A stretch of DNA of 37,796 nt. It comes from Opitutus sp. GAS368. GTDB taxonomy: Bacteria; Verrucomicrobiota; Verrucomicrobiia; Opitutales; Opitutaceae. The stretch covers positions 1 through 37,796 of the forward strand of contig CAMDOO010000029.1 of assembly GCA_945903545.1 (NCBI GenBank), in the 5' to 3' direction. Below, in pieces: positions 8,159 to 37,102 of this stretch. Numbering within the stretch: position 1 is the stretch's first letter; every line of letters begins with the position of its first letter. The position numbers were made by a program, and so were the translations under genes. Under the pieces are notes generated by a model. That model saw only the letters and a program-made list of their open reading frames with translations, did no database searches and was not told the origin of the DNA.

Positions 8159-8250
8159 AGTGACGAGTGACAAGTGACGGGTGACGAGATCGGAGTAATA
8201 CGCCCGATTAAGCCGAATCTTCTCGTCACCCGTCACCCGTCACTCGTCAC
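8159..8250. repeat. Inverted repeat with arms of tandem AGTGACG heptamers, copy 1
   Basis: The left arm (8159-8188) is four degenerate heptamers of consensus AGTGACG. The right arm (8222-8250) is its reverse complement at 27 of 29 positions, around a 33-nt centre. It fills the gap between the hemD stop codon (8251-8253) and the DegT-gene start (8134). A second copy with a different centre lies at 23493-23580. It could form a long hairpin or cruciform. Mechanism and role are unknown. Confidence 0.85.
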
Positions 8251-9124: not shown

Positions 9125-9979
9125 CTATTTCAGCCCCAGCGCCGCGAGCACGCGGGCCGCCATGGCCACCGGGTCGGCGTAGTCCGCCGCGGCCAGCGGG
9201 AAGATGCGCACGCCGGTCTGTTCGTGGTAGAAATGCAGGAGATCGCCCGAGGCGAAGGCGCCGAAGGCGGTGTGGCAGCCGCCGCCGAGGGCGTTCTGGA
9301 AGGCGCGCTCGACGCCCACGGCCCGGGCCGTGGCGAGGTCGAACACCGGCGCGAGGAACGTCACATCGGCCGTGCGGCACTGGATGCCGACGGCACCCTG
9401 ACCGACGGCGGGGACCATGCGGAAGAAATCCACCGGGCGAAACTCCAGGCCGGGCCAGCCCGCGATCCCGAGCCGGGCCAAGCCGGCCGCCGCGAGGATC
9501 GTGGCATCGGCCACGCCCTGCTCGGCGATCTTCTTCAGGCGGGTGTCCACGTTGCCGCGGATCTCCGTGAAGACCACCTCCGGGAAAAGCCGGGCAATCT
9601 GCATCCGGCGGCGCGGGCTGCCGGTGGCGATGGTCTTCGGCACGGTCACGCCCTCGCGCACCACAAGCACGTCATGCGGGTCGGCGCGCGGCAGGTAACC
9701 GGCAATGGCGAGCCCCGGGGGCATTTCCCCGGGAAGGTCCTTGGTGCTGTGCACCGCGATGCCGGCCTCGCCGCGGAGCAGGGCCTGCTCCAGCTCGCTG
9801 GTGAAAAGGCCCTTGCCGCCCTTCTGCTCGAGCGACCAGGCGGACTGCTGGTCGCCGGTGGTGACGATCTTGAGCAGCTCGGTCTCGACCCCAAGGCTGG
9901 CCCGGAGGTGTGCCGCAGTCATCTCCGTCTGCGCGAGCGCAAGCGGGCTCTTCCGGGTGGCGATGATGATCTTTTTCAA
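9125..9979 (-). CDS. hemC: Hydroxymethylbilane synthase (porphobilinogen deaminase)
   Basis: The 284-residue protein joins four porphobilinogen molecules into hydroxymethylbilane, the substrate of the HemD encoded next. Catalytic aspartate D81 lies in HSTKDLPG. C235 in LGGGCHTAFGAFA is the residue that should carry the dipyrromethane cofactor; the usual loop GGCQVPIG is altered here. The protein is about 25 residues shorter than most HemC proteins, the deficit being in the C-terminal domain. The only workable start is TTG at 9979, because MKKIIIATRKSPLALAQ is already the true family N-terminus. That TTG directly abuts the palindrome at 9981-10054, so the repeat forms the whole upstream leader. 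Confidence 0.95.
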   Translation of the reverse strand: MKKIIIATRKSPLALAQTEMTAAHLRASLGVETELLKIVTTGDQQSAWSLEQKGGKGLFTSELEQALLRGEAGIAVHSTKDLPGEMPPGLAIAGYLPRADPHDVLVVREGVTVPKTIATGSPRRRMQIARLFPEVVFTEIRGNVDTRLKKIAEQGVADATILAAAGLARLGIAGWPGLEFRPVDFFRMVPAVGQGAVGIQCRTADVTFLAPVFDLATARAVGVERAFQNALGGGCHTAFGAFASGDLLHFYHEQTGVRIFPLAAADYADPVAMAARVLAALGLK

Positions 9980-23492: not shown

Positions 23493-23580
23493 AGTGACGA
23501 GTGACAGGTGACGAGTGATGAGGGGATTCCCGGCTGTGACTGGTGACAAGCTCGTCACCCGTCACTCGTCACCCGTCTCT
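23493..23580. repeat. Inverted repeat with arms of tandem AGTGACG heptamers, copy 2
   Basis: The left arm (from 23493) reads AGTGACG, AGTGACA, GGTGACG, AGTGATG. The right arm (23551-23580) is reverse-complementary heptamers. The centre differs from copy 1 (8159-8250). It fills the space between the acsA stop (23587) and the membrane TPR gene start (23485). Confidence 0.85.
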
Positions 23581-29888: not shown

Positions 29889-29942
29889 ATATCCGATCCG
29901 TCTGAACCGCGGATTCCGTAGATTGACGCTGATTTATATTTC

Positions 29943-30005
29943 CGGATGAAGGCACGCGGGCAGCACCAGATCTCATTCGAGATGTAGTCCAGGTGCCCTC
30001 AACCG
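29943..30005. repeat. REP pair of the GGTGCCCTCACC family, copy 2
   Basis: The right unit (29984-30005) reads GTAGTCCAGGTGCCCTCA and matches the family at 9054-9120. The left arm is a degenerate reverse complement (CGGATGAAGGCACGCGGG). Both copies also share GATCTCAT in the centre. A GTG inside the right arm (29993) is in frame with the DCC-family gene. Confidence 0.7.
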
Positions 30006-34723: not shown

Positions 34724-35632
34724 CTACTTTAGCTCCAGCGTCATCACCACCGGCCGATGATCGCTGCCTTCCGCCACGCCCGCGCCGTCGAAGATCCGGG
34801 CCTTACCGCCCACGATCGCTCCTTTGAGCGCGGCGGAGACCAGCAGGTGGTCGAAGCGCGAATAGCTTTCCTCCCGCGCATAATGATAGGTCCAGGTTTC
34901 GCTCCGGCTGTCGGCCGCCGGCACCAGCGCGCCCACCGTGGTCGCGCCGCGGGCCAGCATCCGCTCCATCGTCCTGCTCGAGGGGCCGTCGTTGAAATCG
35001 CCGGCAATCACGAAGCGCGCCCGCGCCGGGTCCGGGAAACGCTGCAGGATCCGGTCGCGGACCGCCCCGGCTTCCGCGGCCCGGCGGCCCTCGGACTGCG
35101 GATCCTCGGTCCGCTCTGTCAGCCGGCTTTTCAGGTGCACCGCGAAGAGCGTCACTTCCCCGCCGCCGGCCTCGACGACGACCTCCAGCAGGCCGCGCTT
35201 CACACTCTCCGTCGCGCCGAGATAACCGAAGGTGAGATTGGCATGGGGCACGATGCGCTTCAACGGGCGGCGAGAGAGCACGGCGACGTGACGCTCCCCA
35301 TCCGGGCCGTCGAGCAGGGCGCGGTGCGGGTAATCGAGCCCCTCCGCCCGCAGGTCCAGCGCGAGCTCCTCCAGATAAGACGCATCGCCCATTTCCTGCA
35401 TCACGAGCAGATCGGCCCCGAGCGCGCGGATCACGCCGCGCAGGGCGACTTTTTCCTTCTCCGGCTTGGGGTAATCCGTCCGGTAGCCGACGGCAGTGAC
35501 CCGTCCCACCGAGCCATAGTTTTCGACGTTGTACGTGGCGATCGTGAGCGTCTCGGCGCGGAGAGCCACCGAGGCGAAAACTGCCAGCCCCAAACCCAAG
35601 ACAGTTTTAACCACGGATTTCACAGATGGCAC
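34724..35632 (-). CDS. Secreted endonuclease/exonuclease/phosphatase-fold hydrolase
   Basis: The protein of about 302 residues has a signal peptide (KTVLGLGLAVFASVALRA) and an EEP (DNase I-like) domain. Landmarks are TIATYNVENYG (the metal-binding Asn region), LVMQEMGD with the catalytic Glu, VHLKSR, AGDFNDGPSS and the C-terminal GSDHRPVVMTLEL with Asp-His. Members cleave nucleic acid or other phosphodiesters or phosphomonoesters; the export signal suggests extracellular nuclease or lipid-phosphate activity. There is no in-frame ATG: the start is one of three GTG codons at 35632, 35623 or 35614, all within the palindrome arm at 35607-35640. The repeat thus supplies the start and the charged beginning of the signal peptide. 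Confidence 0.9.
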   Translation of the reverse strand: MPSVKSVVKTVLGLGLAVFASVALRAETLTIATYNVENYGSVGRVTAVGYRTDYPKPEKEKVALRGVIRALGADLLVMQEMGDASYLEELALDLRAEGLDYPHRALLDGPDGERHVAVLSRRPLKRIVPHANLTFGYLGATESVKRGLLEVVVEAGGGEVTLFAVHLKSRLTERTEDPQSEGRRAAEAGAVRDRILQRFPDPARARFVIAGDFNDGPSSRTMERMLARGATTVGALVPAADSRSETWTYHYAREESYSRFDHLLVSAALKGAIVGGKARIFDGAGVAEGSDHRPVVMTLELK

Positions 35633-35691
35633 GGATGCGGCGAAAGCGGATCGGAGTTCTTATCGGTGTAATCCGTGGGATCCGTGGTTAA
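35607..35691. repeat. Inverted repeat, TTAACCACGGATTTCAC family
   Basis: The left arm (35607-35640) starts TTAACCACGGATTTCACAG and the right arm (35661-35691) ends GGGATCCGTGGTTAA. Internal units of 8-9 nt with core ATCCGTG repeat. Repeats of this look occur in many environmental bacterial genomes. The left arm overlaps the 5' end of the EEP hydrolase gene, and the right arm stops 11 bases before the M48 protease stop. Confidence 0.85.
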
Positions 35692-35702
35692 GAAATCCGA
35701 GG

Positions 35703-36938
35703 CTATTTCCCCAAGGCCCGCTCCCGCTCGGCAATCGTCGGGTGCGAATAGTGAAACGCGCTGTACCATGGGTGTGGCGTGAGATTGCTGAGGTTCTTCT
35801 GGGCCAGCTTGCGCAGCGCACCGATCATCGGGACCGCGCCACCGACCGCGTCGCGCGCGAAGGCATCGGCCTGGTACTCGTGCCGCCGCGAGAGCAGGTT
35901 GGTCAGCGGCGAGAGCCAGAAGGTGACGGTCCCGCTAAGCAGGCCGAAGAGCAGGAAGGAGGGCGCCTGCTCGAAGCCCGGAAACCCGAACGCCTCGTTG
36001 AACTCCGGGTTGTCGGTCAGCCAGGCAATGCTGAAGAAACCGGCCGCAGTGAGCAGCGCCGAGAGGCCGATCATCCGCGGGATGTGCCCGAGCCGGTAAT
36101 GCCCGATCTCGTGCGCCAGCACCGCCTCGAGTTCCTCGGGCGTGAGTTGGGCAATCAGGGTGTCGTAGAGCACGATGCGGCGGAAACGGCCAAAGCCGGT
36201 GAAATAGGCGTTGGAGTGACCCGAGCGCTTCGACCCATCGATCACGTCGATCGTCCGGGCGCGGAAACCGGCCTTTTCCGACAAGGCCATCAACCGGGTA
36301 CGCAGCGGTCCCTCGGGCAGCGGGGTGAGCTTGTTGAAGAGCGGCAGGATGAGCTTCGGGTAGAGCACCATCATGAGAAGCTGGAAACCGAGCAGCACCC
36401 CGGCGCCCCAGATCCACCACACCGCGCCGGTCCATTCGACCAGCAGGAGCAGCAGCCAGAGCAGTGGAAAGCCGATCGCGAGGGCCAGCAGCAGGCCCTT
36501 GACCTTGTCCGCAGCCCACAGCCCCGCGCTGCTGCGGTTGAAGCCGTACCGCTGCTCGATCCGGAACTGGCTCCACCAGTCGAACGGGAGCCCCGGGATG
36601 CTCAGCAAAACGCCGGCAAGGATAAGGAACAGCGCGTCGTCCCACATGGCGGAAGGCTCGGCCCAGGCCGAGGTCTCGGCAAACAGCGCCGGCAGCACGC
36701 CGCCGAAAACGACCATGGCCAGCACCAGCGTGTCGAACAGGCCGGACACCGCTCCGAACCGGGATTTTTCCAAGGTGTAAGCAACCGACTTGGCGTAGGT
36801 GGCGCCGTCCATGATCGCGGCCGCCGCGGGCGGCGGGGTCCGGGCATGCCGCCTCACCTCCGCCCGGTTGAGCCCATCGAGCCAGAGCTCCGTGAGAAGC
36901 CGGATCACCATCAATGCCGCCGCGATTGCCAGGATCAT
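35703..36938 (-). CDS. M48 family (Ste24/CAAX-type) zinc metalloprotease
   Basis: From the ATG at 36938 the protein has 411 residues. It is a membrane-embedded Ste24-like protease with zinc motif HEIGH (276-280) and third ligand E354 in RRHEYQADAFA, and about six hydrophobic segments. The GSKRSGHSNAYFTGFG segment (235-250) is typical for the family. In eukaryotes Ste24 trims prenylated proteins; in bacteria members take part in membrane protein quality control. A longer open frame to 37193 would include low-quality sequence from the repeat at 37001-37102 and is rejected. It is divergent from rlmN. Confidence 0.93.
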   Translation of the reverse strand: MILAIAAALMVIRLLTELWLDGLNRAEVRRHARTPPPAAAAIMDGATYAKSVAYTLEKSRFGAVSGLFDTLVLAMVVFGGVLPALFAETSAWAEPSAMWDDALFLILAGVLLSIPGLPFDWWSQFRIEQRYGFNRSSAGLWAADKVKGLLLALAIGFPLLWLLLLLVEWTGAVWWIWGAGVLLGFQLLMMVLYPKLILPLFNKLTPLPEGPLRTRLMALSEKAGFRARTIDVIDGSKRSGHSNAYFTGFGRFRRIVLYDTLIAQLTPEELEAVLAHEIGHYRLGHIPRMIGLSALLTAAGFFSIAWLTDNPEFNEAFGFPGFEQAPSFLLFGLLSGTVTFWLSPLTNLLSRRHEYQADAFARDAVGGAVPMIGALRKLAQKNLSNLTPHPWYSAFHYSHPTIAERERALGK

Positions 36939-37000: not shown

Positions 37001-37102
37001 TTTTGCCACCGAGGCACAGAGCCCGCAGAGTACGGATGATTTGCTTCCGAAACCAAACAACGAGGCTCGGGCTCCGTGAGCTCTGTGCCTCGGTGGCAAA
37101 AA
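37001..37102. repeat. Inverted repeat, TTTTGCCACNGAGGCACAGAG family, copy 2
   Basis: The left arm starts TTTTGCCACCGAGGCACAGA (37001) and the right arm ends TGTGCCTCGGTGGCAAAAA (37102). It shares both arms and much of the centre with copy 1 (13550-13657), and is the better-preserved of the two. It lies in the gap between the M48 protease and rlmN. Confidence 0.88.

Follow-up and report, generated by a model that had tools for sequence, protein, structure and literature searches.

A dispersed palindromic repeat as the probable source of the start codon and signal-peptide beginning of a hydrolase gene in Opitutus sp. GAS368

A copy of a dispersed palindromic repeat is found at the junction of two genes in Opitutus sp. 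GAS368. It probably (at a probability of about 0.74) was inserted there and supplies both the GTG start codon and the beginning of the signal peptide of the downstream gene, which encodes a hydrolase of the endonuclease/exonuclease/phosphatase (EEP) family. This reading is drawn from the layout of the sequence and from comparison with relatives. The window, i.e. the whole stretch of DNA analysed, is 37,796 nt long. Its genome is labelled G000; other genomes carry G numbers and loci carry L numbers. The features at the junction are as follows.

34724..35632, minus strand: EEP hydrolase gene, product putatively secreted (PF03372, E 8.3e-19)
35549..35611, minus strand: V-K-T-V-L-G-L-G-L-A-V-F-A-S-V-A-L-R-A-E-T, the remaining signal peptide and first mature residues, with the cleavage site predicted from orthologues
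35607..35691, no strand assigned: copy of the dispersed palindromic repeat of the ATCCGTG family (inverted repeat; z 6.0, 0/40 shuffles as high)
35607..35636, minus strand: arm reading into the EEP gene, which codes S-V-P-S-V-K-S-V-V-K and holds three GTGs (sequence)
35612..35614, minus strand: candidate start GTG 3 of the EEP gene (GTG GTT AAA; sequence)
35621..35623, minus strand: candidate start GTG 2 of the EEP gene (GTG AAA TCC; sequence)
35630..35632, minus strand: candidate start GTG 1 of the EEP gene (sequence)
35660..35662, minus strand: in-frame TAA closing the EEP frame 5′ of the GTGs, inside the palindrome (sequence)
35662..35691, minus strand: partner arm, just past the M48 protease gene (inverted-repeat detection)
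35703..36938, minus strand: M48 (Ste24-type) protease gene, directly upstream of the EEP gene (PF16491, 1.9e-52; PF01435, 1.7e-32; start from codon model)

The hydrolase scores 68.6 bits against PF03372 (Exo_endo_phos), where the curated Pfam cut-off is 24.5, and thus belongs to that family. The initial annotation had proposed that the gene has no ATG, that three GTGs in the palindrome arm are its only possible starts, and that the arm also codes the lysines ahead of the hydrophobic core. The first point is borne out between the in-frame stop (35660–35662) and the mature domain, where there is no ATG. The second is correct up to the hydrophobic segment, as the sole ATG, GTG or TTG codons between the TAA and this stretch are the GTGs at 35632, 35623 and 35614; further in, however, the frame also holds two TTGs (35599 and 35593) and another GTG (35569), which lie in or past the core. 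The third stands as well: the arm reads V-K-S-V-V-K, including the lysines that precede the hydrophobic stretch, and the core of the window species lies outside the repeat-encoded part. The same-genus genome G001 has the arm in the same frame at its EEP gene, with a stop and a GTG-only choice before the core there too. The order of the M48 and EEP genes is identical in the aligned relatives, with or without a repeat. A hairpin over the EEP start has a calculated stability of -44.2 kcal/mol, yet its z is -2.0 and 12 of 200 shuffles are equally stable, and it was not retained as a feature.

The two arms of the palindrome are 30 nt each and 80% complementary, and the arm ATCCGTGNNATCCGTGGTTAA is made of 9-nt units. 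With up to three mismatches allowed, the 3.08 Mb genome has 146 copies of the arm pattern (65+81) and none of the reversed control. These 146 arms, which form inverted pairs at several of the loci inspected, place the element in a dispersed palindromic family. A shorter form of the arm, with at most one mismatch, occurs in 36 of the 57 genomes searched, own genome counted. Relatives of the window genome include Opitutae and Opitutaceae, and the three genus members G000, G001 and G002 are drafts of 122, ~380 and ~200 contigs. The arms in the window (TTAACCACGG... and ...CCGTGGTTAA) have no GTAG or CGTC at their ends, which sets them apart from the GTAG/CGTC REP superfamily; this tag check is one of the window arms, further copies being known as matched strings only. 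As to MITEs, which have terminal inverted repeats, a target-site duplication and a related transposase, inverted arms are present at the EEP gene, and the M48-EEP junction alignments do not establish a target-site duplication. In G055, which belongs to another family, there are 10 arm matches (at most one mismatch), and one pair (C1:478440-478516) is exactly at the EEP start. The window itself contains further repeats: a second type with GTCACTCGTCACT units on both strands adjoins gene starts at 8161–8249 and 23495–23571, and two GAGGCACAGAG units in opposite orientation are found at 37011–37091, upstream of the M48 gene.

The sequence of events might be looked at in the following way. A palindromic repeat would have entered the tight M48-EEP junction, one of the GTGs of its arm would then serve as the start codon of the hydrolase, and the arm would also code the basic stretch (V-K-S-V-V-K) with which the signal peptide begins. 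Two properties would make such an insertion tolerable: the 9-nt units, each three codons long, keep one frame open with GTGs, and genes here seem to do without a Shine-Dalgarno sequence, so that a new start codon would need no ribosome-binding site. If initiation needs no such motif, a repeat-borne start codon should suffice. In a raw motif count over 16 window genes, GGAG, GAGG, AGGA and AAGG are all absent from positions -20 to -4 before the start; the starts were chosen from the open reading frame list, and two of the 18 genes listed were dropped for wrongly placed starts. In Opitutaceae and relatives the front of the EEP gene may have taken up repeats more than once and from several sequence families, and in a few species the arm would code most of the hydrophobic core.

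The EEP gene has a match in 50 of the 57 genomes, own genome counted. The 5′ regions compared came from 30 loci plus the best 80 of 376 relatives found in a scan of named genomes, and this gave 94 distinct stretches, each made up of the 160 nt that precede the mature domain. Among these 94, a strong palindrome (z at least 4.9, 0/40 shuffles as high) is found in 11: L029, L002, L206, L212, L197, L260, L186, L005, L219, L001 and L193. The next below is L019 with a z of 4.48. The same test applied to control genes gives 0/30 for the M23 peptidase, 1/24 for RsmB and 1/20 for hemC. The difference between 11/94 and 2/74 has a Fisher p of 0.027, which is only indicative because the rows are related. 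ATCCGTG arms in particular (up to three mismatches, either strand) are found in 14/94 EEP regions and in 3/30, 1/24 and 1/20 of those of M23, RsmB and hemC. A special preference for the EEP gene is weak, since the control genes carry such arms too (5/74 in total, with the M23 and RsmB cases of the window genus among them). The initial annotation held that orthologues with the same N-terminal residues and no repeat would count against it. The motif S-[VA]-x-S-[VA]-[VA] is present in 6/94 orthologue rows, all with an arm, in line with the proposal, although the check is partly tautological because the arm DNA itself makes the motif.

Eleven rows of the EEP tree have an ATCCGTG arm before the gene (L001, L002, L183, L005, L008, L208, L209, L212, L226, L240 and L029; L008 is the same locus as L200). 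In 10 of the 11 the arm is in one frame, coding S-V-x-S-V-V-K or altered forms, and L208 is the one whose arm is one base out of frame. No stop codon is found between arm and mature domain in any of the 11. When the close pairs L001/L002 and L200/L209 are each merged to one, 8 of 9 events are in frame, which has a chance probability of 0.001. Across G000 there is no general frame preference among the arms: the 50 within 200 nt of a gene start are distributed 18/17/15 over the three frames. The comparison of 8/9 with 18/50 gives a Fisher p of 0.004, with the EEP arm itself included among the 50. In G002 the EEP gene has a weak arm-like stretch with three mismatches and a frame offset. The one-base offsets of L003/L182 (G002) and L208 lie between the likely EEP start and the mature domain, and may be real or draft errors.

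Other repeat families are found at the same site. A CTTTGCG-type repeat is at the EEP gene of L206, L186 and L222, with 63, 40 and 24 copies in the respective genomes versus 1, 1 and 4 for the control. A CTCCGTT type is at L219 (50 copies versus 0) and, weakly, at L227 (5 versus 0), and a TTTCGTG type is at L193 (110 versus 1) and, again weakly, at L260 (7 versus 0). The EEP arms of L206, L219, L222 and L193 are themselves among the matches listed. For L197, a search of its genome with the arm gave five matches, two of them its own, and one for the control; this does not show dispersal, nor did the copy search with the L213 arm. The M48-EEP junction of L184 resembles that of L219 (GGAGGAAACGGAGG... 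front), and therefore the CTCCGTT type may be common to both, with L208 of the ATCCGTG type between them on the tree. L205 was considered as a repeat-made ATG and was dropped, as an identical ATGAAGACC is found, with no repeat, in its sister L199.

What the arm encodes differs among the rows. In the ATCCGTG cases checked, the signal peptide takes its basic beginning from the arm, and nearly all of its hydrophobic core is non-arm sequence. Among 14 rows checked, the hydrophobic 9-mer is mostly arm in L193 (22/27 nt), L222 (21/27), L227 (19/27) and L251 (27/27), it overlaps the arm by 7 or 8 nt in L005, L219 and L197, and it has no overlap in L001, L002, L212, L029, L206, L186 and L260. L193 is the sole strong palindrome of the core-in-arm rows (z 4.9). 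Those of L222 (z 1.1, 5/40 shuffles as high), L227 (2.8, 1/40) and L251 (3.4, 1/40) are weaker, and therefore the assignment of the arm rests on the repeat copies in L222 and stays uncertain in the other two. In L005, L200, L208, L209 and L212, the M48 gene seems, by eye, to end at a stop codon that comes from the left arm (TTAACC, TTGACC or similar).

Mapped onto a tree built from 96 EEP proteins, the ATCCGTG label requires 9 changes; 13 are required for repeat-coding starts of any kind, a group of 18 rows from which L205, L213, L251 and L260 were left out. Close sisters have different families: L212 has the ATCCGTG type and L222 the CTTTGCG type, at branch lengths of 0.048 and 0.039, and the same holds for L208 (ATCCGTG) and L219 (CTCCGTT). 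The loops of L005 and L208 are similar, and the two may share one insertion. It should be pointed out that the tree does not separate gains from losses, and that the 9 changes might represent few gains and many losses.

The initial annotation extended its proposal to other genes, suggesting that repeats may create or replace translation starts. This idea is supported by the EEP gene and by two genes the annotation had not named. Of the two that it had named, the hemC of the window genome does not bear it out, and the DCC-family gene neither clearly supports nor contradicts it. Genes around arm copies were called with a simple codon model trained on the window genes. Of 110 distinct arms (among the 146 counted), 57 face the 5′ end of a gene, 52 a 3′ end and one neither. 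Among the 57, three genes have an arm GTG as their sole plausible start: the EEP gene, an M23 peptidase (PF01551, L065:1784), which would begin V-K-P-V-V-K-I-L-R-W-F-V-L-L, and an RsmB-like gene (PF01189, L031:1508), which would begin V-V-K-N-S-D. The GTG GTT AAA form of the third EEP GTG recurs at the starts of the latter two. Each of the three genus members (G000, G001 and G002) has an arm-based M23 start; beyond the genus, 22/27 rows have an in-frame ATG and 5/27 a GTG or TTG alone. For the RsmB-like gene, G000 and G001 have an arm-based start, and G002 has an ATG within a short arm-like stretch; in the rows other than G000 and G001, 22/24 have an in-frame ATG. L036 and L069 have in-frame arm GTGs, but an ATG downstream too, and were left out of the count. 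In L159 (G004) a strong palindrome of another type, ATTAGTAATCAGTCATTAGTAAT, is directly 5′ of the ATG of the RsmB-like gene.

For hemC, it had been noted that its TTG abuts a repeat. The TTG at 9979 does follow a local inverted repeat (z 4.4, 0/40 shuffles as high), but it need not be repeat-made because relatives likewise use TTG or GTG: G001 and G008 have GTG, G004 and G005 have TTG, and no in-frame ATG is in view in 10 of 20 rows. With non-ATG starts this common, the gene was dropped as a repeat-start case. The hemC of G003, which represents another genus (L263), has an ATCCGTG-arm GTG at the expected start (GTG GTT AAA AAA ATC); it was not taken as proven because there is an in-frame ATG ~30 codons upstream. 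The DCC-family gene was said to have its GTG in a REP unit. The GTG is present at 29993 but is outside any recognizable arm copy, with a degenerate arm-like stretch starting near 29905. The homologue in G001 is likewise without an ATG at its start. Relatives were uninformative, and the gene was rejected as a second repeat-start case.

The layout at the EEP gene can also be looked at in other ways. The repeat might be intergenic only, with one of the TTGs (35599 or 35593) as the translation start and the arm open in this frame by accident. Both TTGs are in frame, no frame is favoured among the arms close to gene starts in G000, and the part of the work on REPs that bears on this point warns that many elements at predicted N-termini may be extragenic, with translation starting downstream (PMC3733652). 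Such starts would, however, leave no basic residues ahead of the core, and one frame recurs in 10 of 11 EEP rows. Neither the M23 nor the RsmB-like gene has a start codon between the arm and the signal-peptide core or conserved part, and in L193 the core is itself mostly arm. An intergenic repeat thus appears rather improbable. More weight, though still on the unlikely side, is given to a single ancient ATCCGTG insertion that was inherited vertically and lost many times, whereby repeated capture would be illusory and the element would be decaying. The distance from arm to core is alike (70 nt) in L005, L200, L212 and L240, and the similar loops of L005 and L208 fit as well; the remaining loops, however, differ by eye, and the label needs the 9 changes given above. 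The arms of L002, L183, L212 and L029 match the pattern exactly, with four mismatches in L240. Close sisters have other families at the same site, which is not obtainable from descent of one element.

An assembly artefact, with repeats at contig joins set beside the EEP gene, is very hard to credit. Numerous genomes in the set are MAGs in many contigs, and the one-base offset is found here in G002 and L208. Against this, the M48-EEP order is constant with and without a repeat in the aligned rows, G000 and G001 independently have the arm in the same frame, and the G055 case is within a 3.75 Mb contig. Insertion of a dispersed repeat that supplies the GTG start and the signal-peptide beginning remains the preferred reading.

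Similarities to other repeat elements may be considered. Palindromic elements of Rickettsia (RPE) were reportedly described by Ogata et al. in 2000 and 2002. In a review of MITEs, RPEs are palindromic dispersed repeats of ~150 bp with a conserved peptide, inserted into open reading frames (PMC10969869). Going by this description, the ATCCGTG repeat is similar in that dispersed palindromes are kept in frame in protein-coding genes. It differs in that its arm appears to provide a start codon and a signal-peptide beginning, whereas the RPE is described as sitting inside reading frames.

According to the relevant section of Delihas (2007; PMC2759123), the enterobacterial repeat unit RU-2 forms residues 1–30 of YPO1552, a putative exported protein of Y. 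pestis for which a signal peptide is predicted, and the signal sequences of homologues found elsewhere are unrelated to it. As in the EEP case, a small mobile repeat forms the front of a protein with a signal peptide. The account there is of one repeat at YPO1552, whereas several repeat families are found at the EEP gene across relatives; also unlike the RU-2 case as set out there, apparent start-codon replacement is seen in a cytosolic-type gene, the RsmB-like one. REPs tagged with GTAG or CGTC overlap the N-termini of open reading frames or give stop codons, and O. terrae is highly enriched in GTAG repeats, as stated in the passages drawn on here (Di Nocera et al., 2013; PMC3733652). Overlap with gene N-termini is common to these REPs and the ATCCGTG arm, but the arm has 9-nt units and neither tag, in contrast to the tagged elements described there. 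In the open-licence literature, no paper was found on the ATCCGTG repeat family or repeated signal-peptide capture, on apparent start-codon replacement in several genes of one genome, or on a single gene that draws on different repeat families.

A broader proposal, which is tentative and falls somewhat short of an even chance, is that in Opitutaceae and relatives unrelated palindrome families with a 9-nt period act as portable start cassettes at gene junctions. They would provide a stop for the upstream gene (TTAACC/TTGACC of the left arm), a start for the downstream gene (CGGATG from one arm, GTG from the other), together with a peptide of periodic sequence, basic or hydrophobic, that becomes either the front or the core of a signal peptide. 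One conserved enzyme would in this way have had its export signal rebuilt repeatedly from whichever repeat is active in the lineage.

The findings also carry a warning for gene calling: in genomes rich in repeats, called starts may be in the wrong place. One conserved gene pair here represents a natural series of export signals apparently rewritten by dispersed repeats, with differences between close sisters, and therefore the idea that mobile sequence gives rise to signal peptides and start codons becomes testable.
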